A stretch of DNA of 49,945 bases, taken from positions 1-49,945 of IMG/VR virus record IMGVR_UViG_3300024326_000006, one strand, 5' to 3'. Below are positions 1 to 13,410 of the stretch, piece by piece; within the stretch, counting starts at the first letter, position 1; the number at the start of each line of letters is the position of its first letter. The position numbers were made by a program, and so were the translations under genes. The notes under the pieces are model-generated. The model saw nothing but the letters and a program-made list of their open reading frames with translations. It searched no databases and was not told where the DNA came from. Source of the DNA: a virus.

Positions 1-152
1 ATGCGTTTACAATCATCTAGTGTAAGTTCACTCAAATCAATATGCGGATTTAATGCTCCGCCGTTTTGATTTCTATCACACATAGGGCAACTGGCTTGAC
101 AGTTTTGTGTGTTTTCTAAATGTATTGTTTTTATATTTTCGTACTTATACAT
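1..152 (-). CDS. Radical SAM enzyme, N-terminal fragment (cut by window edge)
   Basis: This leftward frame opens with ATG at 152 and runs off the left edge, so only about 50 residues are seen. Residues 18-25 read CQASCPMC, the CX3CX2C signature that holds the radical SAM [4Fe-4S] cluster, preceded by a short beta-strand-like stretch as is usual at the start of this fold. The family cleaves S-adenosylmethionine to a 5'-deoxyadenosyl radical; the substrate cannot be told from this fragment. The start overlaps the end of the 74-residue gene by 8 bases, so it is probably translationally coupled and the last visible gene of the leftward unit that begins at 3029. The family call rests on one motif in the right position; I am fairly sure of it, but not of any subfamily. 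Confidence 0.72.
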   Translation of the reverse strand, partial: MYKYENIKTIHLENTQNCQASCPMCDRNQNGGALNPHIDLSELTLDDCKR

Positions 153-369
153 CCATTATCAACTTTACATCTTTACCAGGACCAACCTTACTGGGTAGGT
201 CGCCATACTGTTCAACATACCATTCAATAACAGCCTTGTACCAGTTTTGACTGTTGTGATGTGCTTTCTTATTAAACTGCCAAATATTATTGTTAGTTGC
301 TTGTATTGTACTTAGAGCTCTTGCACTTTCTTTTTGTAGCTCACGTACACTTAAATCACTTATATCCAA
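145..369 (-). CDS. Small hypothetical protein, 74 aa, TTG start
   Basis: I do not recognise this protein. It is a soluble, mixed-charge 74-residue product with no membrane segment or cysteine motif; the N-terminal third looks helical (acidic/basic SVRELQKESARAL). No ATG lies near the 5' end. The likely start is the TTG at 369, which has AAGG about 10 bases upstream, and it overlaps the end of the methyltransferase-like gene by 14 bases. Its 3' end overlaps the start of the radical SAM fragment by 8 bases. This chain of overlaps, and the lack of any gap, supports it being a real gene of the leftward unit. It could be a small partner of one of the flanking enzymes, but nothing in the sequence shows that. 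Confidence 0.6.
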   Translation of the reverse strand: MDISDLSVRELQKESARALSTIQATNNNIWQFNKKAHHNSQNWYKAVIEWYVEQYGDLPSKVGPGKDVKLIMDV

Positions 370-1396
370 TTCGCATAAACCTTTTGTATTTTTCTAGTTC
401 TAGTTCGCCACTGTACAGCTCTTCGCCGAGATATACTTGTTTTGTAAAACTTTCAAGTGTTTCATGACAGTTAACATGTTCGTTGATTTCAAAATAGTTA
501 TTACTTTGCATTATTACTAAACTTCCGTATGTTATGCTGTCATACCAACTATCAAAGTTATTTATATGTTCGCAACTTGTGTTAATAACAGTATCTGGTA
601 CTGTCCACAATCTCTGAGTTGTACCGTCTGTTTTGTTTACATCGTATATATGTTCGTCAAATCTTATTTCGTGTATGTCTTCAGTGCTGGCTTTAAATTT
701 CCAGTTATCAGTAACCCAAGGTTTGTTAAATATTTCGGCTATTTTCCAAACATCTGGATCTACATCAAAACTCCGAATAAAATCTATTTTTATATCACTT
801 TCAAATAACATAGTAGCAAGAGTAGCATACCACCCTGCACATAAAAATACTTTACCTAGTTCAACATTACATTTTTTAAGCTCATCTACTAGCCAAAGTT
901 TACTTTGTAGCTGTCCTCTACTAAAACAATCTTCGTCTATTTGAACATTATTAGTCTCAAAGTTTTTAAATGCATCAACAAAATGTGTACTATCTCTATC
1001 TTTTAAGAGTCTAAGTATACTCCATATATTGTCATCCATCGTAGCTTTTCTTAAATCTTCGTTGCCTACTAATCTAAAAATACTATGCATGTTGTCGTCG
1101 ACGACTGCTTTTCTTAAATCATCGTTTCCTGGCAGTAATCTAAATAAACTATGTAAGTTTTTTTCTAAGACTGCCTTGCGTAAGTCTTCAGCTTCACCAA
1201 TTATACGTTTGTTATCTATACAACGAAAAATACTATGAATGTTTTTTGTTAAAATAGCACTACGCAAATCTTCATCTGATGTAAACTCTAATATAGCACT
1301 TATATCATTATCAATGTATACACGGCGTAAGTTTTCAAAATATTCATCTTGCGGATTTAGTATTTCGAATCTGTCTAAAAGTTTATATATTTCCAT
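356..1396 (-). CDS. Putative class I SAM-dependent methyltransferase with N-terminal 21-residue repeats
   Basis: The 346-residue product has two parts. Residues about 22-135 hold five tandem helical repeats of about 21 residues of the form (D/N)LRxAxxxxNxxSIxRL. Residues about 160-346 resemble a Rossmann-type methyltransferase: a hydrophobic strand followed by a small-residue loop (KVFLCAGWYATL, near 183) where the SAM-binding glycine loop is expected, then an acidic residue closing the next strand (RSFDVDP, near 209), then a TVINTSCEH segment (near 271) resembling motif IV. The glycine loop is atypical, so the catalytic call is tentative. I chose ATG at 1396 over the in-frame TTG one codon upstream; AAAGGA lies about 8 bases before it. 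The gene overlaps the end of the 548-residue GT-like gene and belongs to the same leftward unit. The substrate is unknown; an FkbM-like sugar or peptide methyltransferase is possible. Confidence 0.55.
   Translation of the reverse strand: MEIYKLLDRFEILNPQDEYFENLRRVYIDNDISAILEFTSDEDLRSAILTKNIHSIFRCIDNKRIIGEAEDLRKAVLEKNLHSLFRLLPGNDDLRKAVVDDNMHSIFRLVGNEDLRKATMDDNIWSILRLLKDRDSTHFVDAFKNFETNNVQIDEDCFSRGQLQSKLWLVDELKKCNVELGKVFLCAGWYATLATMLFESDIKIDFIRSFDVDPDVWKIAEIFNKPWVTDNWKFKASTEDIHEIRFDEHIYDVNKTDGTTQRLWTVPDTVINTSCEHINNFDSWYDSITYGSLVIMQSNNYFEINEHVNCHETLESFTKQVYLGEELYSGELELEKYKRFMRIGYK
991..1333 (-). repeat. Five in-frame 21-28 residue helical repeats in the methyltransferase-like gene
   Basis: Translating the minus strand shows five copies of a unit with the pattern (D/N)LRxAxxxxNxxSIxRL, beginning near residues 22, 43, 71, 93 and 114. 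The spacing is 21, 28, 22 and 21 residues. The middle copies are the most alike (DLRKAVxxxNxHSxFRL). The pattern is amphipathic and suggests a short solenoid in front of the catalytic domain. I do not recognise it as a named repeat family. Confidence 0.8.
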
Positions 1397-3029
1397 CAAA
1401 CTTTTCCTTTAACCAATCAAAATCATTGATAGCTTTTAATGCTTGGCTATCACCTTTGTTGCGAGTGCCGTAAGCTGTGCCTGCTTTGGCTCCTTGCAGT
1501 GCATCCTTTCCAAACGGAGTATCGGGTATCATATGCATACACCAAGTCCTCAAACGTTCATTAGTTTCTTGACTTTTTTGTCTATCAATAATCTTACTCG
1601 ATAGTTTTGCACATTCTCTAAATGCACTTTTCCACGCATTAAACGCATCAGTGTTAAATGCTGTAATATTTGAAACACTTGGCATAGCTACAAACTTATC
1701 ACTAATACTTGTGGTCATATCAGGCTTACTAATATCCATGTTAAGTGTTTCGTGTCTTGGAAATAACTTAATACCGCCATACCCATAAACTAATCCGTTT
1801 ACTGGATTTTTACTACGCCATACATGCACATGATTATATTGCCAAGCTGGAACTTGCCAATCAAAGTTAAAATCGTCAACAACTACAGCATCGCCATCAA
1901 CTATATAAAGCATAGGTGTATTGCATACCTTTGCTGCTTCGATATGTGCCTGATGTATTCCTTTGACACCATGTACTCTATGTATTACTCTATCTGGAAA
2001 TCTAGTTTTTAGATTTTCAAAGTTTTCATCTGCATTTGGTTCTTGATAACTAATAAAAACAATATCGTAAGGGTTAGGTGTACTTGCTTGTATATCTACT
2101 TCTTTTTTGTTAGCAATAAATTTAAAGTGCCATTCACGTTTACTGATTTTAGCATATTTACTGCAAAGTATAATACCATCATGAAACTTGCCATTTAGAA
2201 ATACATGATTAATACGTCTATCAAAACTATTAGAATGTTCAAAATAATCATCAAACATAAAATCTTTACAAACTGTTACCGTTGGGGGAATAATATAAAA
2301 CATTTCAGTTGTACTAGTTTCTAATGCGTTTATATATTCTTCATATGTATCAACAACATTAAATATATTGTACTTACCAGCAACACTTGTAACTATATCG
2401 TGTTCTTTTCGATTTACAGGAAATCTATATTCTACTTCTCGTTTACTTAACGGAACGTGTTTGCTGCATAAAAATAAACCATTGTACAAATCTTTGCCGT
2501 CTACTTGATGTATAAATGCATGGTTTTGTTTTCTATCAATCTGTTCGTGATGTGATATGTAGAACGTGTCAACAAACTCTGTATCAATACTAATATTAGC
2601 AGTACTCATCCAAAACATATCAGTTGTGCTAGTTTCTAATGCGTTTAAGTATTCTTTATATGTATCAATGTTGAATATATCATACGGAGCAGGCACACTT
2701 GCTTGTATATCTACTTCTTTTTTGTTAACAAAAAATCTATGCTGCAACTCTCTGTCTGATATTGTTGCATTTTTAGGTATTAGCGAAACACCATCATAAA
2801 ACTCATTATTTTTAAATACATGAACATAATCAGTGCTCCATGCATCTGGTTCGTAATCAAAGTTAAAATCATTGTTTATTACAATGTCAGGCCACACTAC
2901 CCAGAACATTTTTGTAATACAAATACGCTTTGCATCTTCAAGAGTATCTGCATTTTTTAAAAGAGGAAATCTTTGTTTTACAGAGTTCCACTGTTTGTTT
3001 TTTTCGCCAATAAAGATTATATCATACAT
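1383..3029 (-). CDS. Multi-repeat GT-A glycosyltransferase-like protein, 548 aa
   Basis: The C-terminal region (about residues 320-548) is a GT-A-like domain with a PYDIVFISY start strand and a DGD metal/nucleotide-sugar motif at 378-380. It is a clear paralogue of the 307-residue protein encoded at 7801-8724: both have the FISYxEPNA-type start, the RVHGVKG segment and the xYGxGGIK segment. Residues 2-317 are three tandem copies of about 100 residues that resemble the first half of that domain (ALETSTTxMF, then an NHVF/NHAF strand, then a KREVDI-like end) but lack the DxD. GT-A enzymes move a sugar from a nucleotide donor to an acceptor; the acceptor is unknown. The start at 3029 is the only reasonable Met; no Shine-Dalgarno precedes it and a promoter lies unusually close. 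It heads the leftward unit. Confidence 0.6.
   Translation of the reverse strand: MYDIIFIGEKNKQWNSVKQRFPLLKNADTLEDAKRICITKMFWVVWPDIVINNDFNFDYEPDAWSTDYVHVFKNNEFYDGVSLIPKNATISDRELQHRFFVNKKEVDIQASVPAPYDIFNIDTYKEYLNALETSTTDMFWMSTANISIDTEFVDTFYISHHEQIDRKQNHAFIHQVDGKDLYNGLFLCSKHVPLSKREVEYRFPVNRKEHDIVTSVAGKYNIFNVVDTYEEYINALETSTTEMFYIIPPTVTVCKDFMFDDYFEHSNSFDRRINHVFLNGKFHDGIILCSKYAKISKREWHFKFIANKKEVDIQASTPNPYDIVFISYQEPNADENFENLKTRFPDRVIHRVHGVKGIHQAHIEAAKVCNTPMLYIVDGDAVVVDDFNFDWQVPAWQYNHVHVWRSKNPVNGLVYGYGGIKLFPRHETLNMDISKPDMTTSISDKFVAMPSVSNITAFNTDAFNAWKSAFRECAKLSSKIIDRQKSQETNERLRTWCMHMIPDTPFGKDALQGAKAGTAYGTRNKGDSQALKAINDFDWLKEKFDGNI
2078..3026 (-). repeat. Three in-frame half-GT repeats lacking DxD
   Basis: Residues about 2-112, 116-217 and 220-317 of the 548-residue protein align with each other and with the first half of its own C-terminal GT-A domain. 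Shared landmarks in order are a PYDIF/PYDIV-like strand, a segment ALETSTTxMF, an aromatic-rich NHVF/NHAF or YVHVF strand, a YDG/HDG/YNG turn, and an SKRE-like then KKEVDI end. The position of the catalytic DGD reads WPD, STA and IPP in the three copies, so these copies should not bind the metal. They may bind glycan or serve as structural spacers. Confidence 0.75.
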
Positions 3030-3036
3030 ATAACTA

Positions 3037-3065
3037 GTTATAACATATTTTAATCAACAAGTCAA
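3037..3065 (-). promoter_or_regulatory. Sigma-70-like promoter for the leftward unit starting at 3029
   Basis: Read on the minus strand, TTGACT (3065-3060) is followed after exactly 17 bp by TATAAC (3042-3037), with TG one base before it as in extended -10 elements. A start of transcription 7 bases further on would fall at about 3030, immediately before the ATG at 3029-3027, so the message may be almost leaderless. Confidence 0.7.
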
Positions 3066-3076
3066 GAACAGAATGT

Positions 3077-3084
3077 GATAAATA
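3077..3084 (+). promoter_or_regulatory. T4-like late promoter (GATAAATA) for the tail-fibre gene
   Basis: The octamer GATAAATA followed by C matches the T4 late promoter box TATAAATA in 7 of 8 positions and recurs before several structural genes here. Transcription would start near 3090, leaving the GAGGAA Shine-Dalgarno (3093-3098) and the ATG at 3108 inside the message. It also rules out the upstream in-frame GTG at 3075 as the start. Confidence 0.7.
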
Positions 3085-3107
3085 CTAGAGAAGAGGAACC
3101 AACAAAA

Positions 3108-4523
3108 ATGACCGATTTTATACCAGGTGAAGCATACCGACTAGATATTATTACAGCAGACGAAACAGTTATTGTTGATAGCTGGCAGGGACAGATTAAA
3201 GCCAGTGTTGTTGATGTTGACGGTATTATATTAGTTGATGTTGAAACTGGAAACTTGTATGGTTCTTTGATTGGAACCATTGAAGATACAGAAGGTAATA
3301 CTATTTTATCTTCCACAGGCAATCTAACTGGTAGTGTTACTGGTAGTGTATACGACGACAACGAGGGGTTAGCATTTGATGGTGATACTGGATTGGTTAT
3401 TGCCGATGTTGTCGGAAACATTGTAGATAGCAATGGCGAAGCTATTGTTAATACTGGAGCAAGATCTATTAATGCCGACAGTATTACTGGATCGTTTTAC
3501 GGTGAGCTTACAGGAAGTATAACTGCCGATAGTGTAATATACGGTACATTTAACGGTGACTTTAATGGTACTAGCTACGGAGATTTTTTCGGTGATACTA
3601 CAGGTACACATACTGGTGAAGTAATAGGCGGAGTAACTGGAGACGTAACAGGCAATGTTACAGGAAATCTTACTGGAGAGTTACTTGCTATACAGCCAGG
3701 CGATGATATTGCTACACGACTAACTGGACACAACAATACTGGTGGATACGATCAATGGGAGTTTTACGGTGGACTTGCTCATCCTGTTTATCCTGAAGAT
3801 GATGCAGTTGCAAGAGGTCCTATAGTTAATATTGGAGCAACTAGAGCTGACACAGAAGTAAGAGCCAACTTAAATCATTACGATGGCACACCGGTAATGA
3901 GATTGTCCCTGGAAAGCTCGCCAACTTACAAAGCTGATTTTATGGGAAGACTTGTTGGAGCAGTTGCATATGACACACAAGGCGAAGATGGATTTATTAA
4001 TATTGTATCAGGTTCAAGCAATGGAACACTTATTAGTGGTGTAAATGATAAGGTAAACATTGGTAATGAAAATGACGAAGTAAATATTATTGCTGATAGT
4101 TTAAGTATACAAACTGACTCGATTGACTCTCTTGCACACAGAGGCGAAGGCAATTCTAAAACATCATTATTAAACAATGACGAACTATTAAGTATCGAAA
4201 GCTGGGGATACAACGGTACTGAATACAAACGTGGTGGGCTTTTTGGATTTAAAGTTGACGGGACACCGGCTGCAACTGGAAATACTATGCCGTCAAGTTT
4301 TGGTATACAACTAAGTTCAGCGTCTAATACACATGTTACAAATACAGAAAATAGACTAGAGTTCAACAACAAGGGCGTATTAGAAGTTCCAGTATTTAAA
4401 GCTAGAGGTACTACATTTGCTGACAGAGATAGTATGACAGCAGAAGCAGGTATGATATTGTTTAACACTAGTAATAACAAGTTCCAAGGATATACCGGAA
4501 CAACATGGGTTGACTTACACTAA
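3108..4523 (+). CDS. Tail-fibre-like virion protein, 471 aa
   Basis: This is a Gly/Thr/Ser/Asn-rich, beta-structured protein. The first half carries short repeats of the LTGSVTG/GDVTGNVTG type typical of fibrous phage tail proteins. The last 30 residues (a segment MILFNTSNNKFQGYTG then WVDLH) are the usual C-terminal ending of many tail-fibre-type proteins. ATG 3108 is chosen because GAGGAA lies 9 bases upstream and the late promoter at 3077-3084 would start transcription after the GTG at 3075. It is the only structural gene in the accessory region and the only structural gene on the plus strand of the window, lying between enzyme genes on both sides. Similar TG-rich repeats occur in the 661-residue fibre protein at 16904-18889. 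It probably forms a trimeric fibre or a baseplate appendage; its receptor is unknown. Confidence 0.7.
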   Translation: MTDFIPGEAYRLDIITADETVIVDSWQGQIKASVVDVDGIILVDVETGNLYGSLIGTIEDTEGNTILSSTGNLTGSVTGSVYDDNEGLAFDGDTGLVIADVVGNIVDSNGEAIVNTGARSINADSITGSFYGELTGSITADSVIYGTFNGDFNGTSYGDFFGDTTGTHTGEVIGGVTGDVTGNVTGNLTGELLAIQPGDDIATRLTGHNNTGGYDQWEFYGGLAHPVYPEDDAVARGPIVNIGATRADTEVRANLNHYDGTPVMRLSLESSPTYKADFMGRLVGAVAYDTQGEDGFINIVSGSSNGTLISGVNDKVNIGNENDEVNIIADSLSIQTDSIDSLAHRGEGNSKTSLLNNDELLSIESWGYNGTEYKRGGLFGFKVDGTPAATGNTMPSSFGIQLSSASNTHVTNTENRLEFNNKGVLEVPVFKARGTTFADRDSMTAEAGMILFNTSNNKFQGYTGTTWVDLH

Positions 4524-4538
4524 AAAATATGCTATAAT
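4510..4538 (+). promoter_or_regulatory. Sigma-70-like promoter for the ligase operon
   Basis: TTGACT (4510-4515), a 17 bp spacer and TATAAT (4533-4538), with TGC just before the -10 (extended -10). The -35 lies within the last codons of the fibre gene. Transcription would begin near 4545, upstream of AAAGGAGAG and the ATG at 4576. Confidence 0.8.
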
Positions 4539-4575
4539 GATAACATATTAAAAAGTCTTCAAAGGAGAGTAAAGT

Positions 4576-4794
4576 ATGTTATTTGATTGGAAACATTTAA
4601 AAAAAGCAAATACTAACTATTTTACACATTGTTTTATAGCAATATGTTATAGTTTTTTGGGACTTGGTATTTTTATAATGGGCATATTACACGCATTTTT
4701 TCCTTTTATGTTTGGATTTACACCTTACAAGATTGCTAAAAAAATCACCGACGGTACTGAAAAAAACTTTCCTGCTTGTATCAACGAGAAATAA
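4576..4794 (+). CDS. Small membrane protein of the DUF6356 type, 72 aa
   Basis: The product has one strongly hydrophobic segment (about residues 18-48) between a polar N terminus and a basic C terminus. The order of features (a Tyr/Thr-His motif before the helix, then HAFFPFMF, then a lysine-rich helix) matches my memory of the DUF6356 family of small bacterial membrane proteins, whose function is unknown. AAAGGAGAG lies 8 bases before the ATG, and a near-perfect sigma-70 promoter precedes it. The next gene begins on the very next base after the stop, so it is the first gene of a three-gene operon with the AMP-forming ligase and the GNAT-like protein. It would sit in the host inner membrane; a link to lipid or surface chemistry is plausible from the neighbours but unproven. 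Confidence 0.65.
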   Translation: MLFDWKHLKKANTNYFTHCFIAICYSFLGLGIFIMGILHAFFPFMFGFTPYKIAKKITDGTEKNFPACINEK

Positions 4795-5856
4795 ATGAAA
4801 ATTTTTATAGACGGTGAACAAATATCCGAACAATGGATAAGCGATTACACACTAAGTAATCCTGTGAATTGTTACAGTAACAACCCAGACTGGGAACAGA
4901 ACGTTCTTAAACTATTACACAACTGGTATTGGCAAAATGGATATAGCTATGGCTATAGAGGTGATCAGTTTCTTAATCTAAGTACTAGCGGTACAACTGG
5001 ATTTCCGCAGGACATTGGACATACCAAAGAAACCATAGAACAAGTTGTAGATGCAAATATTAAAACACTAGGGTTAGATAAAAATAGTAAAATACTCAGT
5101 TACTATTCTCCTCGCGGTATTGCGTTTAGTGTGCTAAGTGTATACCTTGCATTAAAACTAGATTGCGAACTATACATCGAAACATTCAAAGGCATTGACT
5201 ATGTAAATCGTGTACACGAAATACGTCCGACACATACATTATTATTACCCAATGTTTGGAAAGTATTACACAAACACGATAGATGGAAGACACTAGATTA
5301 TAGTAGTTTAGAAACTGTTATTACAGGAAGTGATTTTACACCAACAGGTATGCTGGACGAGCTACGTGAGCATAATCCAGGAAAAGTATACAATGTATAC
5401 GGTAGTACTGAAGTACCTCCTATGGTGTTGTACAGCGAAGAAGAAAATACATATACTATAGATAGTATTACTCCGGGTGCAGAAGTTGATATTATAAACG
5501 GGCAGATTGCTTGCAAATGGAGTAGTCAATCTAACATATGGATTAGTGGTGACTGTGTTAACGGTGACAGAAATAGATTTACAATTAACGGACGCAAACA
5601 CAATATGTTTAAACAAAATACTATCAGAGTATACCCTGAACAAATAGAAAAAGCGGCCGTTGCAGCTGGTGCAGAACTTGCATTATGCCAACAAATTAAA
5701 AATCAGTGTATATTATATTATACAGGCAATATAAAAGATATGGCAAATTTTGTAGAACAACATCGATATATTCCAAGATTTAGACTTCGGGCAGTAGATA
5801 AAATAGAAGTAGATAATAATCTAAAAAAGATTATAAGGACGCAAACATTTGTATAA
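4795..5856 (+). CDS. Compact AMP-forming adenylate synthetase (ANL superfamily)
   Basis: ANL enzymes activate a carboxylate with ATP to an acyl-adenylate, often then passing it to CoA or another thiol. The 353 residues hold the family motifs in order: the phosphate-binding loop STSGTTGFP (residues about 63-71), YGSTEVPP (near 202-209), an SGD segment (near 248), and the hinge region GRKHNMFKQNTIRVYPEQIE (near 264-283). A short C-terminal part ends in NNLKKIIRT, a possible match to the catalytic-lysine region. The usual length is about 500 or more; here the N-terminal subdomain is largely missing and the C-terminal lid is short. The loop has Q where most members have K after the Pro. It begins directly after the membrane protein gene and its end overlaps the GNAT-like gene. 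The acyl substrate cannot be predicted; a pseudoenzyme is possible. Confidence 0.75.
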   Translation: MKIFIDGEQISEQWISDYTLSNPVNCYSNNPDWEQNVLKLLHNWYWQNGYSYGYRGDQFLNLSTSGTTGFPQDIGHTKETIEQVVDANIKTLGLDKNSKILSYYSPRGIAFSVLSVYLALKLDCELYIETFKGIDYVNRVHEIRPTHTLLLPNVWKVLHKHDRWKTLDYSSLETVITGSDFTPTGMLDELREHNPGKVYNVYGSTEVPPMVLYSEEENTYTIDSITPGAEVDIINGQIACKWSSQSNIWISGDCVNGDRNRFTINGRKHNMFKQNTIRVYPEQIEKAAVAAGAELALCQQIKNQCILYYTGNIKDMANFVEQHRYIPRFRLRAVDKIEVDNNLKKIIRTQTFV

Positions 5857-6463
5857 ACTAGAAATGTATAATGGTACACAAGATCTAACAGATTTTTATA
5901 AAGGTGCTGCTGCTAAAGGGTTTTATAACAATCATAATAAAACTGTGTTAATAGATTATATTAACAAACACGAAAATGCAAACTTATTTTTATTATACTA
6001 TGGAGATAATATTGTAGGCACTAGTGTGAGCCATAGTTTGCAACAGTTAGGCATACTAGGAAAAAATGCACATAGAATAAGTGCTAGAACATGTGTATTA
6101 AATGATATAGTTGACGGGGAACGTGCCCATGCTGTACACAACTATCGACACTCTCCTATGAATCATTGGACTAGTCAAATGCTTACGCCTGTGTGTATGC
6201 ACTATGTTGGATTAGAAAATCCTCAATATATTAGTACAAATACATTAGAAACTGGAAGTCAAAGTAAAGTACATCGCATATGGTCAAAGATTATGCACAA
6301 CCAAGGATATTTAAAAGATCCTATAGAGTTAGAGTACAAAGGAACATTTCAAACATTTTGGAAAGTTGACGTTGATTTTTATATGAAAAAACTAGAAGAA
6401 AATATGTGGCCTGAAACTAAACAAGCACTAGACGTATTTCTTACAAAGTTCAAAAAAGTCTGA
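5849..6463 (+). CDS. GNAT-like acyltransferase candidate, 204 aa
   Basis: The pattern suggests a GNAT fold: a strand pair LFLLYYGDNIVGTSVSH (about residues 46-62), a central strand region, and near 150-165 an asparagine/threonine strand followed by a helix and an NQGYLKD turn resembling the end of GNAT domains. I do not see a clear acetyl-CoA loop (Q/RxxGxG/A), so the call is tentative. The start is probably TTG at 5849, with AAGGA 10 bases upstream; the alternative ATG at 5864 has no ribosome site and would shorten the protein by 5 residues. The TTG overlaps the ligase stop by 8 bases, so the two are coupled. The 3' end overlaps the opposing radical SAM gene by 36 bases. It could use the acyl group activated by the ligase; that is inference. 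Confidence 0.45.
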   Translation: MYKLEMYNGTQDLTDFYKGAAAKGFYNNHNKTVLIDYINKHENANLFLLYYGDNIVGTSVSHSLQQLGILGKNAHRISARTCVLNDIVDGERAHAVHNYRHSPMNHWTSQMLTPVCMHYVGLENPQYISTNTLETGSQSKVHRIWSKIMHNQGYLKDPIELEYKGTFQTFWKVDVDFYMKKLEENMWPETKQALDVFLTKFKKV

Positions 6464-7801
6464 CATCTCTGGAAACACTTGTTCGTGATCGACATTACGT
6501 CTACGCCCTTGTTCTTCAAAGAAGTTGTGGAAGTCTCTACGTCCTTGAATAACTTTATCTAGTGGATATTCTGTAGATTCCATGTAATCAACTACACGAC
6601 GAAACTTTTCATACTCGATAGTGCTAAATGCATCCTTGCGATTATCATCTGTGTTCTCTTTGATAAACTGCAAATGGTCGTGCATATAACTCATGTAGTT
6701 TTTAGGCAGGATATTGATATCATACTGTAGAGGTTCTTTGAGATGCGGAGTATCAAACCCTAGTCGTTGCCATCTGTGCGTTTCTACATCATTGTATTTT
6801 TTACGCCATTCAAGAATCTTTTCAAGCAATGTGCGGAATGTAGTGACACTGAAAATATTAAATGTAATCATAATAACCATTGGTGCTTCACAGTTGCGCA
6901 TAAAGTAATCTAAGTTGCGTTCAAACACTTCAATGTCTAACCCATCACGAATATACTCTGCACGTTTGCCCCAAGTGTCAATACTTGTAAACATTTTAAA
7001 ACGTCTAATCTTGTTGTTTGTCAACAAGTCATTCACACGGTTTGTAAACTTTTCCAACTGCTTTGGCTTGCCACCTAAGTTGCTGTTGCAGTTTAGTTCT
7101 AACTCTGGTTTAGGATCTGCATCCAGCATATCAAACAACTTGTATGTGCTTTGTTGTATTGTAGGTTCACCACCTGTAATACGCAAAATATGCAAGTCCT
7201 TACTAAGCTCTGGCCACCATTTCCAAAATGCATCTAAATACGGATTGCTTTGTTCTTCAAATATTTCAAACCAGTCAATATCGCATCTGTGATTCTTTAC
7301 GTTTGTATAAGGACCGTGTTGCTTGATCTCTTGATGATATCTACTGCTGGCTTTTGGATGACAATATCCACAACGGAAGTTGCACTCATTACCAAACGAA
7401 ACTTCCAAGTATTCTGGATTAACATCAAACTCTGCACCACCTTCTTTGACAGCTTTCAAGCGTTCTTTGAAAAAGATAGTTTGGTTGCGTTGTTTTCTAT
7501 CACTAACATAGTCTTTGCCCATTGCTTCAATCTTCCAGCAATAGTTGCATCCACTAGGTTGTTCACCTTTCATCATAGCAGCACGTTCTGCTTTCTTTTG
7601 TGCTGTATTGTGTATAGCACTAGGATTCTCTAATAGCGGTGCTGCGTCAATCTTGTGAGGAGCAGGATGATAACAACTATGTGTTTCACCTGTCTGAAAA
7701 TAGATGTTTGCATGATACCACTTGGCAAAGCAAAACGTAGGAGATATTTCCTGCGTAATCTTATCGATACGCTTGATTTCTTCGCTTTCGCTGCGTTCCA
7801 T
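6428..7801 (-). CDS. Twitch-domain radical SAM enzyme, 457 aa
   Basis: Residues 140-147 carry the CX3CX2C signature (CNFRCGYC) and 209-213 the TGGEP motif, which together define the radical SAM core. Four further cysteines lie before the core at 24, 43, 85 and 88 (FCFAxW, HSCYHP, CNYCW), likely ligands of an auxiliary iron-sulfur cluster. This arrangement matches the twitch-domain radical SAM proteins that I recall from marine T4-like phages, whose substrate is not known. Related SPASM/twitch enzymes modify peptides or sugars. It is the last gene of the six-gene leftward operon and its start overlaps the stop of the upstream GT-A gene by one base. Its own 3' end overlaps the GNAT-like gene coming from the other strand. 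Confidence 0.88.
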   Translation of the reverse strand: MERSESEEIKRIDKITQEISPTFCFAKWYHANIYFQTGETHSCYHPAPHKIDAAPLLENPSAIHNTAQKKAERAAMMKGEQPSGCNYCWKIEAMGKDYVSDRKQRNQTIFFKERLKAVKEGGAEFDVNPEYLEVSFGNECNFRCGYCHPKASSRYHQEIKQHGPYTNVKNHRCDIDWFEIFEEQSNPYLDAFWKWWPELSKDLHILRITGGEPTIQQSTYKLFDMLDADPKPELELNCNSNLGGKPKQLEKFTNRVNDLLTNNKIRRFKMFTSIDTWGKRAEYIRDGLDIEVFERNLDYFMRNCEAPMVIMITFNIFSVTTFRTLLEKILEWRKKYNDVETHRWQRLGFDTPHLKEPLQYDINILPKNYMSYMHDHLQFIKENTDDNRKDAFSTIEYEKFRRVVDYMESTEYPLDKVIQGRRDFHNFFEEQGRRRNVDHEQVFPEMSDFFELCKKYV

Positions 7802-8724
7802 TATTGTTCTCTATCTAAGAATTGTTTGCTGTTATCACGTGCCGGATTTTTGTATACTGTTTTAAAAAATAGACTTTGATTTCCATCAAGTGGTTCAGCA
7901 GCAATAGGCAACTCAAGTTCGTCTATCAGTGAATACCCAAGTCCAACAGTTTCTATTTCCATATGGTCTTCATCCATATCTTTGCTATCCCAATACTCAT
8001 TGAGCCAATCAAAATCACGTACATTTACAAAGTCCCAGTCTGTACACATTGTCTTGTACAATCCTTCTCGTGCGCCGTAGATAGCCCAACGGCCGTTCTC
8101 AACATCTGCACCAATCATTAGCCAGATGTACAAACGGTGCAAGTTCTTCCAGTGATTTTTATGAAAGTCCTCTACACTAACACGCATGCCTTGATCCAGT
8201 GCCATTTTAACACCTTCTCTAAATCCAGCACGCCATGCTTGATGCGGTGTAGCATTATTCATAATAGTACTGTATGTACCATTCATTTGTATGTACTGTG
8301 TATCCCAACAGAAATCTACTTGTGCATGTGGATTATCGTTGGGTGCATTTTCGTGTGTACGCATGTTTAATACATGTTGTTTGGGCCAGCACTTAATGCC
8401 GCCATTTCCGTATGTAAGATTATTGATACTATTAAGTGCAGTCCAACTAATAACTTTATTAGTCAAATCTGTATTTTCATCAAAGTCCATTGTTTGCGAC
8501 AAAAACTTTTCATCAATAATATTGTCGCCGTCTATTGTAATAAACCTATCAGTAGTTGATTTGTTAGCGGCTGCTTTGTGTGCGCTATCACTGCCTTTTA
8601 CACCATGCACACGCTCTGCCCACGGAACTTTCTTACACAAGTCTGCATAGTTTTGTTCTGCATTAGGCTCGTCGTATGACAAATATATAATATCGCAATC
8701 AATAACTCTAAATGTGTTAGCCAT
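7801..8724 (-). CDS. GT-A-like glycosyltransferase, 307 aa
   Basis: The N-terminal half is GT-A-like: strand DIIYLSYDEPNA (11-22), a GVKG segment near 41-44, a strand ending in the DGD motif at 65-67 that would bind the metal and nucleotide-sugar, and a conserved YGNGGIKCWP segment near 105-114. It is clearly paralogous to the C-terminal domain of the 548-residue protein at 1383-3029, which carries the same landmarks. The C-terminal half (helical, aromatic-rich) is less informative and ends with an extra tail of about 60 residues absent from the paralogue. GAGGAA precedes the ATG and the gene overlaps the end of the 180-residue gene by 8 bases. Donor and acceptor are unknown. Confidence 0.65.
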   Translation of the reverse strand: MANTFRVIDCDIIYLSYDEPNAEQNYADLCKKVPWAERVHGVKGSDSAHKAAANKSTTDRFITIDGDNIIDEKFLSQTMDFDENTDLTNKVISWTALNSINNLTYGNGGIKCWPKQHVLNMRTHENAPNDNPHAQVDFCWDTQYIQMNGTYSTIMNNATPHQAWRAGFREGVKMALDQGMRVSVEDFHKNHWKNLHRLYIWLMIGADVENGRWAIYGAREGLYKTMCTDWDFVNVRDFDWLNEYWDSKDMDEDHMEIETVGLGYSLIDELELPIAAEPLDGNQSLFFKTVYKNPARDNSKQFLDREQ

Positions 8725-9259
8725 TTATTTCCTCATAATGATAAGTATCAAACCTACGCATAGTATATACTGAAACTTCTTCGTTGTCAAACTCAAAATC
8801 ATTTTCAAACGCTACTTCATCTCCGTTATTAAAACGTATTAATCGATACAATACATTTGGGTCATCTTTTTTTGTTATACTAAAGTAGTAGTTTGAAAGA
8901 TCGATTGTAACTTTTTTATCATTTAAATCTTCTATAAAACCAGGATCAGCAGATATTTTCCAAACATGTTTTACATTATCTTTAGTTAATACTATTTGTT
9001 TGTTATTAGGTACAGTTCTAGGAATCTGATATAGAAAACACCACATCAGCTTGTCCTCGTCGACTTGTGTCTGGTTTTTAATATAATATTTTTTATCTAT
9101 AAAATCATATTCAACCTTGTAGTCTAATAAACTCCAATGTCCTTCTATAAACTTCTTAACATCTTCAAAGTCGCACTCAAGAAACTTAAATCTGTCATCA
9201 GATTCTTTTGAGATTTTATAAATATTTCCATCGTCATCAAAACATACAAATCGTTTCAT
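8717..9259 (-). CDS. Hypothetical protein, 180 aa
   Basis: I do not recognise this protein. It is acidic and rich in aromatic residues, lacks membrane segments, signal peptide and cysteine motifs, and alternates short beta-like strands with charged loops (for example KRFVCFDDDGNIYKI at the N terminus). AGGA lies close before the ATG. It sits between two glycosyltransferase-like genes in the same operon, one base after the stop of the GT8-like gene and overlapping the next gene by 8 bases, so it is most likely made together with them. It could be a partner or substrate of the sugar enzymes, but the sequence does not show this. Confidence 0.6.
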   Translation of the reverse strand: MKRFVCFDDDGNIYKISKESDDRFKFLECDFEDVKKFIEGHWSLLDYKVEYDFIDKKYYIKNQTQVDEDKLMWCFLYQIPRTVPNNKQIVLTKDNVKHVWKISADPGFIEDLNDKKVTIDLSNYYFSITKKDDPNVLYRLIRFNNGDEVAFENDFEFDNEEVSVYTMRRFDTYHYEEING

Positions 9260-9260
9260 A

Positions 9261-10103
9261 TTATATTCCTAAACATTTTTCATATTTTTTCATTAAACTA
9301 TTATTTAAGAAATCTTTTTCAGTGTAATGAAAAATGCCCGATTGCTGATGATTTCCTATTTTTAGCCTCATATCACTGTCAAAATAAACACCAACTCTAT
9401 CTTGCCAACGATATGCAAAGTTAATGTCCCAACCTTGAATCTTTGGTTTCATATGTGTAAATGTAGGATTCTTAACTTTATTGTTTGTAATCAAATGTTC
9501 AATGTCCATTATTTTACAAGCAACTGCTGCGCTAACATCCATGCTTGGACGCAATGCAAACTTTTTTCCAGAACTAGCTGATTTATAAAACTGTTCCCAG
9601 TTGTTTGTTATCATTTCAAGCCAAGTATAAAACTCATGTGCTAAGTCAGATTTCTTAAACCAATGGAGACCACTATACAAGTTTGGAAGATTGTATTTTT
9701 TGAACGCTTTACGATAATAGTTGTCATCTACTAGTTCTCCACGGTATGTATACACATTGCTAGTGTAAAATAAATCATAGTTTCTTAAGAAATCAAACCA
9801 ACTACTAATGTCTTCAAGTATTAACATATCTGTATCTATCACCGCAGTTTCGTTATACGGAATAGCATGATATATTTTCCAACGATTGCTGATTTTCCAA
9901 TCTTCATCCTTGGCATGATCTCCCCACGGTATTTCAACGATATGATCAAACAAATGTTTGTATTTTGTAGGCACACTTTCATTAGTGATAAGACAAATAC
10001 TAACATCTTTGTTTGTAGCATGAATACTCATTGCTGCTAAACATGCTTGTCTAACATAATCAAAACCACTGTTTTGTGCCAGCATTGTAAAGTTATTGGT
10101 CAA
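9261..10103 (-). CDS. GT8-like glycosyltransferase, 280 aa, TTG start
   Basis: The sequence opens with a short strand, a DYVRQACLAAMSI helix (15-27), then a second strand SICLIT, and reaches a DTD motif at 90-92 in the strand context AVIDTDMLIL, all typical of GT8-type GT-A glycosyltransferases. Near the C terminus is FHYTEKDF, which may correspond to the GT8 C-terminal His region. It is paralogous to the neighbouring 273-residue protein, which has the same DYVKQA helix and a DTD motif. The start is TTG at 10103, with GGAGAG 5-7 bases upstream; the next in-frame ATG (10085) has no ribosome site. It overlaps the end of that gene by 11 bases. The sugar donor and acceptor are not predictable from sequence alone. 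Confidence 0.65.
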   Translation of the reverse strand: MTNNFTMLAQNSGFDYVRQACLAAMSIHATNKDVSICLITNESVPTKYKHLFDHIVEIPWGDHAKDEDWKISNRWKIYHAIPYNETAVIDTDMLILEDISSWFDFLRNYDLFYTSNVYTYRGELVDDNYYRKAFKKYNLPNLYSGLHWFKKSDLAHEFYTWLEMITNNWEQFYKSASSGKKFALRPSMDVSAAVACKIMDIEHLITNNKVKNPTFTHMKPKIQGWDINFAYRWQDRVGVYFDSDMRLKIGNHQQSGIFHYTEKDFLNNSLMKKYEKCLGI

Positions 10104-10914
10104 TAATTCTCTCCAAACTAAACTTGTTCATCACATGACAGTTACTACCTTTGAGATTTACAGCAGTGTATTCTCCAAGTCTTTTATTTTTTTGTACTAG
10201 TATTTTTATTTCATCGTCTTTAATCCCAACAGCTACGTCTTTGTCTGTTGCATAAAACTTTGTTCCTGGCAAACTTCCAACAAAGTTTCCTGTTTGATAT
10301 CCATTCATAATATGTACTGCAATACTAAAAGCAAAATCGTTTCTATATACACTTGTTTTAAACTGATACATATTACGATAGTGTATATAGTTTTCTTCAA
10401 TGTGCTTGATCAAATCAAAGAACATTTTGTTTTCATCTGTTTTTCTAAAAAAGATTACAGTAGCCCAATAAAAATCTACACTAGTATCACTTACTTTTTC
10501 AAACTCGGGTACTATTCTATGCATTCCAACATGAGTAGCATCCTTGTATAGCAAAAGATCTTTTTGCTGTACAAAGCAGTTGTTTAGTAAATCATTGCTA
10601 ATGATATAATCAGTATCCATTACAATAGTAGAATCGTAAGGAGTTAACTCATATGCAGATGCTCTGTTTTTATTATTAAACTTTAATGTTTTATCACTAA
10701 AATCGCCATCGGCATATCGTTTACTAGTACTATTTTTAGTCATGTCATCGGAGTGAATAACATAATCAAATACATCAGATTCGATATCTATATCTGTAAC
10801 AATCGAAGTGGGCAAGTCCATATACTTGCGTATGCGTTTAGCAAGGAAAATAGCTTGCTTTACATAATCAACTGATTTATTATTACTTGCGAATAACAAT
10901 ACACCCTTTGTCAT
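10093..10914 (-). CDS. GT8-like glycosyltransferase paralogue, 273 aa
   Basis: This is a second GT8-like protein. Landmarks are an N-terminal strand GVLLFAS, the helix DYVKQAIFLAKRI (16-28), a second strand SIVTDID, and the DTD motif at 100-102 in TIVMDTDYII. The order and spacing match the adjacent 280-residue paralogue, so the pair probably arose by tandem duplication and then diverged strongly. A histidine in NCHVMNKF near the C terminus is a possible equivalent of the GT8 metal-binding His. The ATG at 10914 overlaps the stop of the 115-residue gene in an ATGA arrangement. The two paralogues may add successive sugars of one glycan, which is inference from their pairing. Confidence 0.6.
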   Translation of the reverse strand: MTKGVLLFASNNKSVDYVKQAIFLAKRIRKYMDLPTSIVTDIDIESDVFDYVIHSDDMTKNSTSKRYADGDFSDKTLKFNNKNRASAYELTPYDSTIVMDTDYIISNDLLNNCFVQQKDLLLYKDATHVGMHRIVPEFEKVSDTSVDFYWATVIFFRKTDENKMFFDLIKHIEENYIHYRNMYQFKTSVYRNDFAFSIAVHIMNGYQTGNFVGSLPGTKFYATDKDVAVGIKDDEIKILVQKNKRLGEYTAVNLKGSNCHVMNKFSLERIIDQ

Positions 10915-11258
10915 AAATCCATAATACTTTCAACTGTTCTATTTGTTTTTAACTTATTATATTCAGTTAAGTATTTGTTTGTTGATTGCCAATACACATT
11001 TACGAGTTCATTGGCAAAATCTTGTAATACTTCTATTTCAATAGGTATACCACTATCATCAACTAATATAGTTTCAGTTTGATGTAGTGCCAATAAACTT
11101 TGACAAAAACTTATAAGATCTTTTGTTACAGAAAACTGACCACCATTAAAATAATAAACAAGATTATCGTGGTACTGTTCTTTTAACAAACGTTTTTGAT
11201 TATTTAAAGTAATCATGTAATTGCTAAAATCTAATGCTTTTTCTAAGCGTTCGTCCAT
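10911..11258 (-). CDS. Conserved phage hypothetical protein, 115 aa
   Basis: The product is mostly helical with an N terminus MDERLEKALDFSNY and a central FNGGQFSVTKDLISFCQ segment. I recall proteins of this form next to tail genes in marine T4-like phages, without a known function. It contains no catalytic motif. It is the first gene of the six-gene leftward operon. A consensus sigma-70 promoter at 11282-11310 and AGGAG 6 bases before the ATG support the start. Because it lies directly after the tail module but has its own early-type promoter, it may be either a structural accessory or a member of the sugar operon; I cannot decide. Confidence 0.6.
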   Translation of the reverse strand: MDERLEKALDFSNYMITLNNQKRLLKEQYHDNLVYYFNGGQFSVTKDLISFCQSLLALHQTETILVDDSGIPIEIEVLQDFANELVNVYWQSTNKYLTEYNKLKTNRTVESIMDL

Positions 11259-11281: not shown

Positions 11282-11310
11282 AGTATATATGCTTTAGACT
11301 ACATTGTCAA
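11282..11310 (-). promoter_or_regulatory. Sigma-70-like promoter for the six-gene GT/radical SAM operon
   Basis: On the minus strand, TTGACA (11310-11305), a 17 bp spacer and TATACT (11287-11282). Transcription would start near 11275, before AGGAG (11269-11265) and the ATG at 11258. It begins 2 bases after the T tract of the terminator at 11313-11336. Confidence 0.85.
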
Positions 11311-11311
11311 G

Positions 11312-12421
11312 TTAAAAATCGGAATCTTTTGTTCCGGTTGGAGTAGGTAATGAGATAGCATTGTAAGTAGTACTATCCCAAACAAAATCACTACTCGGAG
11401 TATAAGTGTATACTGTACTGTTGATTGTTGCTGTAACACTTTCGTCTACTAGCTGCCCTGCTGGTCCGCCTGGTTCTGCCTGGCCGCCTGTTCCAGAATC
11501 GCCATCGTCTAGTTCTATTTTAAACTTTAGTTGTGTTGCTGTATTAAATGCAGTATTAGTACTTGCATAAATCCTAAAAAAGTTATCATCATAAATCTGT
11601 GCTACAGGTACATCTCCTGGATTACCTCCGGCTCTGCCGCCACCTTGTTTTTCAAAAATCTTTGTAGTTGGAGAACCAGTTGTAATACTTGCATTACTAT
11701 AACCTGTTCCTGTGCCTGTTACTGAATCGCAACGCCAGGTATTTTGATTTACTCTACCAAACCGTATTTGTCCAGCATCATTTAACACTTGTGCCCAGTC
11801 CCAATCTTTTGTATACTGAGTGCCTGTGGTTCCTCCACTTGCGTTTGATGCAAAACGTATTTCTCCTCCAGATGCTAAGAAATATAAAAATGCTTGATGA
11901 GATCCAAAATCAACTGTAACTTCGTGCGATATAACTTTAACTGCGTCGGCCGATCCACCAAAACTTGTAGTACGAGAACTAGTTGTACTTGCTCCGCCTG
12001 TTGTTTCTAACGGATTTGGACCATCAAAACTACTAGTTGGAAAATCTGTAGATGTATGATTAAATGCTAGAATAGTATTTGCTGTAGTAGTTAGGTCGGT
12101 AATATGTTGTTCAACAATTTGATCAACTCCTTGTTCAAAGTCAGTAGGATCAATATCAGTTGCTAATGTGCCGGTTTGATGAACATGTGCCGCTTGTATA
12201 TCCAACCATAAATCAAAGTATTGTTGCTCAGTTACTGTATCACTTACACCTGGTGTATTTCCGCCAACTACTGTATTACTACTAAAACTTCTACCATATC
12301 CGCTTGTACTTGTTAGTGGAGTTGTCAATGACCCATATTCAGTCCAAACAGATTGATTGCCTACTCTTCCAGCTATTGATTCTCTAATATTATTATAGTT
12401 AAGAGCAGATATTGATGGCAT
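11312..12421 (-). CDS. Virion structural (tail/fibre-associated) protein, 369 aa
   Basis: A Thr/Ser/Gly-rich, beta-structured protein without catalytic motifs. Its central part shares landmarks with the 305-residue protein upstream: GGEIRF, then a KDWDW/KNQDW segment, then NDAGQIRFGR/NAGQIKFGR, then a long Gly/Ser-rich region, so the two are paralogues. It lies at the end of the leftward tail module and is closed by a terminator within its last codons. AAGGAA precedes the ATG; a possible sigma-70-like promoter lies at 12440-12468. The position after the fibre genes suggests a distal tail or baseplate appendage. The exact T4 counterpart cannot be named. Confidence 0.6.
   Translation of the reverse strand: MPSISALNYNNIRESIAGRVGNQSVWTEYGSLTTPLTSTSGYGRSFSSNTVVGGNTPGVSDTVTEQQYFDLWLDIQAAHVHQTGTLATDIDPTDFEQGVDQIVEQHITDLTTTANTILAFNHTSTDFPTSSFDGPNPLETTGGASTTSSRTTSFGGSADAVKVISHEVTVDFGSHQAFLYFLASGGEIRFASNASGGTTGTQYTKDWDWAQVLNDAGQIRFGRVNQNTWRCDSVTGTGTGYSNASITTGSPTTKIFEKQGGGRAGGNPGDVPVAQIYDDNFFRIYASTNTAFNTATQLKFKIELDDGDSGTGGQAEPGGPAGQLVDESVTATINSTVYTYTPSSDFVWDSTTYNAISLPTPTGTKDSDF
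11313..11336 (-). terminator. Rho-independent terminator inside the 3' end of the tail gene
   Basis: On the minus strand CGGAA (11336-11332) and TTCCG (11324-11320) form a 5 bp stem around a 7-base loop, followed at once by ATTTTTA. The hairpin encodes the last residues of the 369-residue protein and its T tract reaches the stop codon. It would end leftward tail transcription just before the next promoter. The stem is short, so efficiency is uncertain. Confidence 0.6.
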
Positions 12422-12439
12422 CTATGGTTCCTTTTTTAT

Positions 12440-12468
12440 AATGTAACATACTATACATTGTATGTCAA
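12440..12468 (-). promoter_or_regulatory. Possible sigma-70-like promoter before the 369 aa structural gene
   Basis: On the minus strand TTGACA (12468-12463) is followed after 17 bp by TACATT (12445-12440), a good -35 with a weaker -10. The late-like octamer TATAAAAA at 12440-12433 is also present but would start transcription after the ribosome site, so it is the less likely reading. Confidence 0.4.
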
Positions 12469-13386
12469 TCATAAATCGCTTGTTTTTGCATACGACGGGG
12501 CTGGTGAACTTACATAAGAGCCCGATGCTCTAATATGCGAAACTGCACTAGTAAGAACTCCTGCAACATATTCATCTGCTCCTCCGGTGCCAACATCTAA
12601 ATCATTAAATACAATATTAAAAGTAATATCAGTGTTATTTGATTCTAACTTTGCTTCAATATAATATTCGTTATCTGAATATCCGCCCGCAATGCTACCT
12701 GTTTTTCTATATATAGTTTGGTATGAAGTTGTTAAATCCTCATTGCCAATAGCATAAGAAGTTCCTGATGGTTTTGTATTAGTAGTTACTGTTCTTCCAA
12801 ATTTTATTTGGCCTGCATTAAATATAATATCATACCAGTCTTGATTTTTTTGTAGGTTAGTGTCAGCTGGAACATTATCAATATTGATTGACGAATCAAA
12901 TCTAATTTCGCCACCAGCGTTAAAGAAACATCTGCGAGCTGCAATCGAAGAAAAAGATATCTGTACAGTATGATTAACTGATTGAGGCTGGGATGTTCCT
13001 CCCCAAGGCGATGTAGCTCCATCTCTTACACTATTAACTCCGCCTGATTCTATGTCAGCTTGATTGCCATTTAGAATAAATCTATCGTCTTCTAGTTCAA
13101 CTATTAATATTTCATATGCATTATATAAAGCATCTTCTATTTCATTAGAAGTAGCAACTGTATTAATAGTAACTGGTGCAGTATTATTAATGTGTACATA
13201 TACTTTTTCAAAGTCGGCAAACAATGTGTTCATGTCAGAAACTAATACTTCGTTTCCTTCGGCAACTGGATTACTCGATACAGTATTGTTGTATCCTTTA
13301 TCACCAGACCCAACTCCTAATAACGCTGAAATTTTTCCTTGTAGTTCGTTGTATCTTGATTGTGAGATAATGTCGCCGACTGCCAT
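12469..13386 (-). CDS. Virion structural protein, 305 aa, paralogue of the next gene
   Basis: The N-terminal region (ISQSRYNELQGKISALLGVG, then the helical MNTLFADFEKVYVHIN) is probably an attachment part, followed by beta-rich sequence with GGEIRF near 165-175, a KNQDWYD segment, NAGQIKFGR, and a final FNDLDVGTGG stretch. The same order is found in the 369-residue protein. No enzymatic motif is visible. A late-promoter-like octamer TGTAAATA (13403-13410) overlaps the stop codon of the upstream fibre gene, and AAGGA lies 6 bases before the ATG, which supports late, separate expression. Likely a minor tail component or fibre accessory; I cannot assign a T4 gene number. Confidence 0.6.
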   Translation of the reverse strand: MAVGDIISQSRYNELQGKISALLGVGSGDKGYNNTVSSNPVAEGNEVLVSDMNTLFADFEKVYVHINNTAPVTINTVATSNEIEDALYNAYEILIVELEDDRFILNGNQADIESGGVNSVRDGATSPWGGTSQPQSVNHTVQISFSSIAARRCFFNAGGEIRFDSSINIDNVPADTNLQKNQDWYDIIFNAGQIKFGRTVTTNTKPSGTSYAIGNEDLTTSYQTIYRKTGSIAGGYSDNEYYIEAKLESNNTDITFNIVFNDLDVGTGGADEYVAGVLTSAVSHIRASGSYVSSPAPSYAKTSDL

Positions 13387-13402: not shown

Positions 13403-13410
13403 TATTTACA
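13403..13410 (-). promoter_or_regulatory. T4-like late promoter (TGTAAATA)
   Basis: The minus-strand octamer TGTAAATA followed by C differs at one position from the T4 box TATAAATA. Transcription would begin near 13397, before AAGGA and the ATG at 13386. It overlaps the stop codon of the upstream fibre gene. Confidence 0.6.

Follow-up and report, generated by a model that had tools for sequence, protein, structure and literature searches.

A fixed operon of glycosyltransferase (GT) and radical S-adenosylmethionine (SAM) genes follows the tail genes of a marine phage and its relatives, and we propose tentatively, at something near an even chance, that it modifies phage tail proteins with variable tailoring enzymes encoded alongside. 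The operon, p115-GT273-GT280-p180-GT307-rSAM2, was found in IMG/VR record IMGVR_UViG_3300024326_000006, a single 49,945-base sequence of an uncultured marine virus; this whole stretch is called the window below. The operon belongs to an island at positions 1 to 11258, which the original prediction had described as a surface-modification island around a tail-fiber gene, serving either to decorate the phage's own fiber or to alter host surface glycans. Among relatives, the order of the core genes is constant, while peripheral gene content varies. The components belong to known kinds and their arrangement is new, and no report of a fixed GT-radical SAM operon behind tail genes was found in the literature searched, the scope of which left aside subscription papers and supplements.

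Among the genes of the window are one for a T4-type late sigma factor and SbcCD-like ones; a long tail operon on the minus strand runs from gp25/gp6-like baseplate genes to fiber-type proteins. Its gp6-like protein is 32 to 36% identical to those of Agrobacterium phage Atu_ph07, Salicola phage SCTP-2, Pseudomonas phage PA5oct, and Cronobacter phage GAP32. Because of these features, we regard the window as a fragment of a T4-like jumbo phage; judged by sequence, the source lineage is an uncultured, marine, T4-like jumbo phage related to PA5oct.

The open reading frames (ORFs) confirm the three transcription units that the original prediction had described for the island: one on the minus strand from 11258 to 6428, one on the plus strand from 3108 to 6463, and one on the minus strand from 3029 to 1, which runs off the contig. 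The features are as follows (aa, amino acids).

3..152, minus: rSAM1, N-terminal 50 aa of a class B radical SAM protein, cut by the contig end
145..369, minus: p145, small conserved protein, 74 aa, overlapping rSAM1
356..1399, minus: Rossmann methyltransferase-like protein with N-terminal repeats, label unconfirmed
1383..3029, minus: GT548, GT-A domain at about aa 319-548 (DGD motif) behind three degenerate repeats
3078..3085, plus: ATAAATAC, late-type promoter motif upstream of the fiber gene
3108..4523, plus: tail-fiber-like protein
4576..4794, plus: DUF6356 small protein with one predicted membrane segment (PF19883, 34.5 bits, cut-off 24.4)
4795..5856, plus: AMP-forming (ANL) ligase, 353 aa (PF00501)
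5849..6463, plus: GNAT/FeeM-like acyltransferase (weak)
6428..7801, minus: rSAM2, N-terminal-twitch radical SAM enzyme (NF033640)
7801..8724, minus: GT307, GT-A glycosyltransferase, core
8762..8790, minus: internal sigma-70-like promoter of GT307, within the p180 gene (TTGACA-17-TATACT)
8717..9259, minus: p180, core protein without assigned function; predicted beta-hairpins and helices in series
9261..10103, minus: GT280, GT8/glycogenin-like glycosyltransferase, core
10093..10914, minus: GT273, GT8-like glycosyltransferase, core
10911..11258, minus: p115, first gene of the core operon
11282..11310, minus: sigma-70-like promoter of the core operon (TTGACA-17-TATACT)
11312..13386, minus: s369 and s305, last tail-operon genes and constant neighbors of the core
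13406..36604, minus: tail operon with s511, s640, s661, p200, 4540-aa protein, and gp6-like baseplate wedge

Conservation and setting of the core operon

Relatives were collected from IMG/VR in scans that kept the best 80 of 429, 366, 415, and 572 matched relatives, more distant ones lying outside the sample. The 429 stretches matched by the rSAM2 scan were cut to the best 80, and a second lineage came from two scans that started from distant copies. The rSAM2-bait set holds 78 loci distinct by rSAM2 DNA, 62 of them with at least 5.3 kb upstream; the window itself (L001) was skipped. Since every locus in that set was selected for its rSAM2, the presence of rSAM2 called for a test with a second bait, s511, for which 80 loci less 8 duplicates and 32 with less than 7 kb downstream left 40. 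The 62-locus and 40-locus counts are not fully independent because at least 4 contigs are common to both baits, and related sequences within the locus counts are not independent events.

A virion gene followed by p115-GT273-GT280-p180-GT307-rSAM2 was unbroken and codirectional in 62 of the 62 rSAM2-bait loci with sufficient upstream sequence. With the s511 bait, all five core genes (p115 to GT307) were found in order in 36/40 loci and the three GT genes in order in 39/40. The GT genes are present in L240, L243, and L250, where p180 or p115 was not detected, and L286 says nothing either way because most of its stretch is taken up by two giant virion genes (1114 and 1679 aa). A radical SAM gene of the rSAM2 or rSAM1 family occurs in 37/40, and p145-rSAM1 stands directly after GT307 in L232, L233, L255, and L287. 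Linkage among relatives, on which the original prediction had staked itself in part, is thus strong rather than absent.

The fiber gene does not share this constancy. It was found within 6 kb downstream in 50 of 71 rSAM2-bait loci, the other 21 giving no weak fiber match at E values up to 10 either, and in only 2 of the 40 s511-bait loci. The fiber was therefore rejected as the organizing principle of the island, contrary to the original prediction; the constant partner is the upstream tail operon. Further partners of rSAM2 in its bait set are the GNAT-like gene (within 4 kb, 54/75), the ligase (within 5 kb, 25/70), GT548 (within 8 kb, 50/69), and the methyltransferase-like gene (within 9 kb, 44/63). 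The GNAT-like gene is inverted in L026, L043, L047, and L049, where it is codirectional with rSAM2; those loci gave no ligase match.

The window has an Arenbergviridae-like tail operon order: gp6, giant virion protein, p200, fiber-type genes, s511, and s305. The PA5oct operon (NC_071039) runs baseplate wedge, 11.6-kb virion gene, small hypothetical gene, p200, long-tail-fiber subunit, s511 homolog, and s305 homolog. All of its products except the small hypothetical one are annotated "ESI-MS/MS" in the record, which covers the homologs of gp6, the giant protein, p200, s511, and s305. A PHROG search matched 0 of 28 members of s369 and s305, whose virion status we take from PA5oct. A tblastn search with s305 against 50,697 phage records found 10 records, all PA5oct-type Pseudomonas phages. 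In the window, the counterpart of the 11.6-kb PA5oct gene is a 4540-aa ORF at 19518-33140. Some relatives have enlarged s305/s369-type virion genes (1114, 1679, and 1498 aa; L286:6241-14707, L303:12513-17009).

The PA5oct operon stops after the s305 homolog. Profiles of p115, GT273, GT280, p180, GT307, and rSAM2 found nothing in the 32.9-kb PA5oct tail stretch, those of GT307 and GT280 found nothing in its whole genome while matching a positive-control contig, and no N_Twi_rSAM match in PA5oct rose above the cut-off. The likeness to the Arenbergviridae thus covers the tail operon order and its homologous virion proteins and ends at the core module and the N_Twi_rSAM family. The module was probably gained in the window's lineage rather than lost in PA5oct. 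Against the same 50,697 phage records, tblastn with GT307, GT280, the methyltransferase-like protein, p180, and p115 gave no match (GT273 and GT548 were not run), and the only relatives of rSAM2 were in Vibrio phages K566 and K567 (OZ196521.1 and OZ196593.1; 27% identity over half the protein).

Ratios of nonsynonymous to synonymous substitution rates in three pairwise comparisons were 0.02 to 0.26 for the island genes, which indicates purifying selection, and 0.02 to 0.06 for rSAM2, where that selection is strong.

Enzymes and promoters of the island

The two radical SAM enzymes and the ANL ligase of the original prediction are borne out. The match of rSAM2 to N_Twi_rSAM (NF033640) reaches 299.5 bits against a curated cut-off of 170, and its seven cluster cysteines, C139/C143/C146 (CxxxCxxC) and four N-terminal twitch cysteines, are invariant in 16/16 diverse copies and kept in an 8-row alignment of paralogs. 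The truncated rSAM1 is complete in a contig near-identical to the window, where a 359-aa protein with CxxxCxxC is encoded (L082:771-1850). Next to it, p145 is 65 to 100% identical across 54 loci, conserved over most of its length, and in all 35 distinct cases directly adjoins the gene that follows (rSAM1 in 16, another gene in 18, another CxxxCxxC protein in 1). The ANL ligase scores 64.3 bits with PF00501 (cut-off 29.9); its N-terminal part is short because the match begins at profile position 170.

The four GT-A-like proteins also hold, as two homologous pairs: GT307 with the GT548 C terminus (hhalign 99.4%) and GT273 with GT280 (97.6%). The AlphaFold2 model of GT307 has a GT-A fold (predicted local distance difference test score, 87.9), D65/D67 (DXD) are invariant in 36 rows, and Foldseek and VIA rows are mostly GT-A or related nucleotidyltransferases, with a best Z of 10.4; by modeled fold and DXD motif, GT307 is a predicted GT-A glycosyltransferase. 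The DXD motif is likewise invariant in GT280 (19 rows) and GT273 (18 rows). The GT280 profile matched glycogenin weakly (E = 0.085), and the GT273 profile did not match it. The GT548 match to Glyco_tranf_2_3 is weak (E = 9.5e-4; 19.7 bits, below the cut-off of 27). Of its degenerate repeats, about 100 aa each, the first can be aligned to the GT-A half of the protein's C-terminal domain (Z 19 versus shuffles), with the DGD motif lost, and the second cannot (Z 1.1). Repeat number seems variable because relatives are mostly about 300 to over 600 aa long.

The remaining assignments are less firm. The original methyltransferase-like label was not confirmed: no profile matched convincingly among 19 orthologs, one of which gave Spermine_synth at E = 0.03 and one AdoMet_MTase at E = 0.11. 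For the GNAT-like label, FeeM matched 6 of 18 orthologs, weakly (best E = 0.012). The tail-fiber label is backed by a tail-fiber PHROG in 3 of 14 orthologs, the window's own copy matching only PHROGs of unknown function. Nothing in the PDB matched p180 at an E value of 0.001 (best VIA Z, 5.5 over 73 residues), and BFVD gave three phage or unnamed proteins at that threshold. One p180 is 434 aa long (L303:19138-20442) against the usual 180 to 200 or so.

The original prediction had also placed sigma-70 promoters on the enzymes and a late promoter on the fiber, a division that appears in relatives and not in the window scan. In the window alone, 61 sigma-70 consensus sites compare with 63.4 expected, no excess over chance. 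The exact T4 late promoter, TATAAATA, was rejected, occurring 3 times against 9.9 expected, below chance; the working motif is ATAAATAC, which occurs 4 times in the window, each time before a gene of the fiber or tail operons. Because the single-window scan is at chance, the promoter case rests on relatives, in which a sigma-70-like site was scored as at least 10 of 12 matches and counted over distinct upstream stretches. Such sites precede p115 in 50/54 stretches, GT307 in 53/58, and GT548 in 21/33 (4 to 5% in base shuffles). The late-type motif precedes the fiber gene in 23/35 (background, 0.058 per kb, both strands) and was found in none of the stretches before p115, the GT genes, p180, or rSAM2. 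These results support two putative promoter classes, early-type on the enzymes and late-type on the fiber. Two observations counter a clean split between enzymes and virion genes: s369 has a sigma-70-like site in 31/46 stretches, and the late-type motif is scarce before other virion genes (s369, 8/46; s305, 7/50; s511, 9/45; s640, 0/43). Judged by promoter type, the enzymes may be synthesized early.

Radical SAM genes beyond the window

The island extends past the left end of the window in contig L004/G001, which is 99 to 100% identical to the window in island proteins. Among the genes of the 26.4-kb extension are 15 ORFs bearing CxxxCxxC, genes for Asp/Asn hydroxylase-family and nitroreductase-family proteins, and two weakly labeled kinds, PP-loop-like (two proteins) and short-chain-dehydrogenase-like (one). 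In the part of the island that recurs, radical SAM genes alternate with PP-loop-like genes. Twelve contigs have 8 to 21 NF033640 matches each, and 4 to 13 per contig, 85 altogether, exceed the curated cut-off; only the latter counts are specific to the family because radical SAM matches below the cut-off occur in all 14 control genomes. Eight long contigs have 4 to 18 matches each, and in a 330-kb contig all 14 lie at 46,753-89,316, a 43-kb block that reaches the core. Stretches of nine contigs yielded 120 radical SAM ORFs, 9 to 20 per contig, which form four clusters of 69, 26, 21, and 4; members of classes B and C match peptide-maturase models below cut-off. An enzyme set of the decoration type, as originally predicted, is supported. 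The island would supply many N-terminal-twitch radical SAM enzymes that await study.

Among 347 ORFs of at least 100 aa on nine contigs, a simple hydropathy count found at least three hydrophobic segments in only 4, all of a desaturase-like cluster; because just those 4 have so many, no flippase or polymerase was seen. Nucleoside diphosphate (NDP)-sugar pyrophosphorylase (NTP_transferase) was found in 0 of 14 contigs, which are fragments, and in 14/14 controls. The one cellular match is a 13.5-kb contig (L101) of a "Neisseriaceae" metagenome-assembled genome, which encodes a radical SAM protein that shares 74% identity with the 465-aa paralog of the island. The contig may come from a phage and have been binned with that genome, and it was left aside as a clue to the host.

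Possible functions of the core operon

We favor modification of virion proteins because the core is fixed to tail genes, its catalytic residues are invariant, its genes are under purifying selection, membrane proteins are few, and no NDP-sugar pyrophosphorylase was found in the 14 contigs. The operon would have been added to the 3' end of the tail/fiber operon in a PA5oct-related marine lineage. Its enzymes would work on newly made tail (fiber) proteins in the cytosol of the host, both ahead of tail assembly and while it proceeds. A short glycan would be the product of the GT-A enzymes, and tailoring of the protein or the glycan would fall to rSAM2 together with the variable radical SAM, 2-oxoglutarate (2OG)-oxygenase-like, PP-loop-like, ligase, and acyltransferase-like enzymes. 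The reactions may run in this order, and the benefit might be receptor binding, shielding, or stability. The peptide S-glycosyltransferases SunS and ThuS head the Foldseek rows of GT307 (E = 5-9e-4), and VIA aligned GT307 with ThuS at Z 9.6 and 3.3 A over 138 residues.

Several observations weigh against this proposal. The TM-scores of GT307 with SunS and ThuS are low (0.30 to 0.33), the structural alignments mainly cover residues 2-191 of 307, and other GT classes tie with ThuS (6p61, Z 10.4; B4GALNT1, Z 10.3). With bacterial, ganglioside, and polypeptide GTs so close together (Z 8.8 to 10.4), the fold does not give the acceptor class of GT307. The acceptor would be a virion protein, and no modified protein is known. 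The core sits behind a tail operon that works elsewhere without it, since PA5oct has the operon and no module. Nor is rSAM2 universal, a match to its family being present in 33 of 40 s511-bait loci. The virion proteins diverge faster (median identity, 53% for s369 and 47% for s305) than the enzymes (65 to 93%). An epimerase/dehydratase (PF01370), present in 8 of the 14 contigs and inside the radical SAM block in three of these, would fit a glycan pathway as well, as would proteins recognized by eye as SGNH-, DegT-, and amidinotransferase-like. Finally, similar phage gene sets have been read as host-surface modifiers in passages of PMC7029224 and PMC7824862.

That last interpretation, which we consider somewhat unlikely here, holds that host surface glycans are altered during infection to block superinfection by competing phages, the GTs and tailoring enzymes using host-made lipopolysaccharide (LPS) or capsule precursors. 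The early-type promoters, the GT8-like appearance of GT280 and GT273, and the epimerase and accompanying proteins just mentioned speak for it. So do published statements about two kinds of phage cluster. The pelagimyophage host recognition cluster, as described in part of PMC7029224, combines tail fibers, GT8-type GTs, and radical SAM cassettes in T4-like marine phages, much as here; it is hypervariable and non-syntenic and lies between VrlC and gp14, whereas the core described here stands in fixed order behind the distal tail operon (62/62 and 36/40). The P-SSM2-type LPS/capsule and S-SSM6a halogenase clusters of jumbo phages resemble the island in bringing together glycosyltransferases, 2OG oxygenases, a halogenase, and methylase-like enzymes in large phages; they are sporadic and carry sugar-nucleotide enzymes in the sections of PMC7824862 that cover them. 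Unlike the island, the text of PMC7824862 does not mention "radical," and where the P-SSM2 type has sugar-nucleotide supply, the fragmentary contigs here have NTP_transferase in 0/14 and epimerase in 8/14. The published accounts call such clusters sporadic and polymorphic, in contrast to the constant order of the core, and alteration of the host surface leaves the fixed place behind the tail operon unexplained; the missing NDP-sugar pyrophosphorylase and scarce membrane proteins also tell against it, although host enzymes could supply these functions. Sequence does not settle the choice, with virion decoration ranked above host-surface change. Even in the latter case, the strict attachment of the core to the tail operon would be a new, testable arrangement.

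It is also conceivable, though quite unlikely, that a small molecule or modified peptide, akin to a secondary metabolite or a ribosomally synthesized and post-translationally modified peptide, is produced by the radical SAM block during infection and decorated by the GTs. The crowding of 15 radical SAM ORFs into 26 kb together with genes for PP-loop-like, oxygenase-like, and nitroreductase proteins, the sub-cut-off peptide-maturase matches of classes B and C, and a Trp halogenase 36 kb away are consistent with this, and PMC7824862 puts forward a metabolite cluster in cyanophages that includes a halogenase and oxygenases. Given its position immediately before a neighboring gene in all cases seen, often rSAM1, p145 could be a peptide or adaptor; it is conserved over most of its length, and no leader and core precursor was recognized by eye (no dedicated search was run). 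The contrast between a constant core beside the tail genes and a variable remainder also argues against such a product. Modification of phage DNA or tRNA nucleotides, with QueC/QueE-like chemistry by PP-loop and radical SAM enzymes and a sugar added by the GTs, is very improbable. The alternating PP-loop-like and radical SAM genes recall such chemistry, but no queuosine-type model exceeded its cut-off among the 20 island proteins, part of the whole, scanned with NCBIfam, and the place and constancy of the core link it to tail genes rather than replication genes.

Other known systems share single elements with the island. Campylobacter phages CP220 and CPt10, in the portion of PMC2853527 devoted to them, have 11 to 12 radical SAM proteins, an exchangeable module of five, and a putative glycine amidinotransferase. 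Many radical SAM proteins in one phage and an amidinotransferase-like protein, seen by eye in lineage 2, are common to both; that description has no GT core, and tblastn of rSAM2 and the best N_Twi_rSAM paralog matched only two Vibrio phages in a collection not checked for the presence of CP220 or CPt10. Moraphages, by the partial description used from PMC12619734, are large aquatic metagenomic phages with four putative core glycosyltransferase orthogroups and frequent Lys-tRNA ligase. They are like the source of the window in size, habitat, and several GTs and unlike it in that the text of PMC12619734 is without the word "radical"; membership is not supported, Lys-tRNA ligase (TIGR00499) being found in 0 of 14 contigs, which are fragments. 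In mycobacteriophages, glycans are carried on capsid and tail tube (Freeman et al. 2023, as cited in a passage of PMC12619734); glycans on virion proteins are the feature that would be shared, and the phages are unrelated. Tasman Sea viromes are described, in an excerpt of PMC7150976, as rich in radical SAM and GT genes.

A bolder form of the tail-protein proposal, which we hold to be rather unlikely, is that a widespread marine jumbo-phage lineage has a dedicated virion-decoration factory. The fixed operon would make glycosylated, radically modified tail proteins (for example, C-C or thioether cross-linked, epimerized, or methylated), and a swappable battery of up to about 20 radical SAM and tailoring enzymes would diversify tail chemistry without changes to the tail genes. 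If the core does modify the tail, in this or the plainer form, host range and receptor recognition of widespread ocean phages would depend on post-translational chemistry hidden from sequence-based host prediction. To our knowledge, mycobacteriophage virion glycosylation has no radical SAM partner, and we know of no earlier case of radical SAM chemistry on virion proteins, which would be the first if true.

Some minor observations concern sequences outside the core. The amidinotransferase-like proteins, seen by eye with no profile run, lie in the lineage-2 island at L180:18837-19841 and L179:17693-18673. Far from the island, beside gp46/47-like genes, the window encodes a tryptophan-halogenase family protein at 47268-48911 (PF04820, E = 1.6e-76). 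The short protein at 48933-49388 matches a PHROG labeled NAD synthetase (E = 6e-39) and also homing-endonuclease PHROGs, labels that conflict. No Rfam family matched anywhere on the window, including its last 330 bases or so (49618-49945), where the sole ORF is short, overlapping, and on the minus strand (81 aa, 49551-49796).

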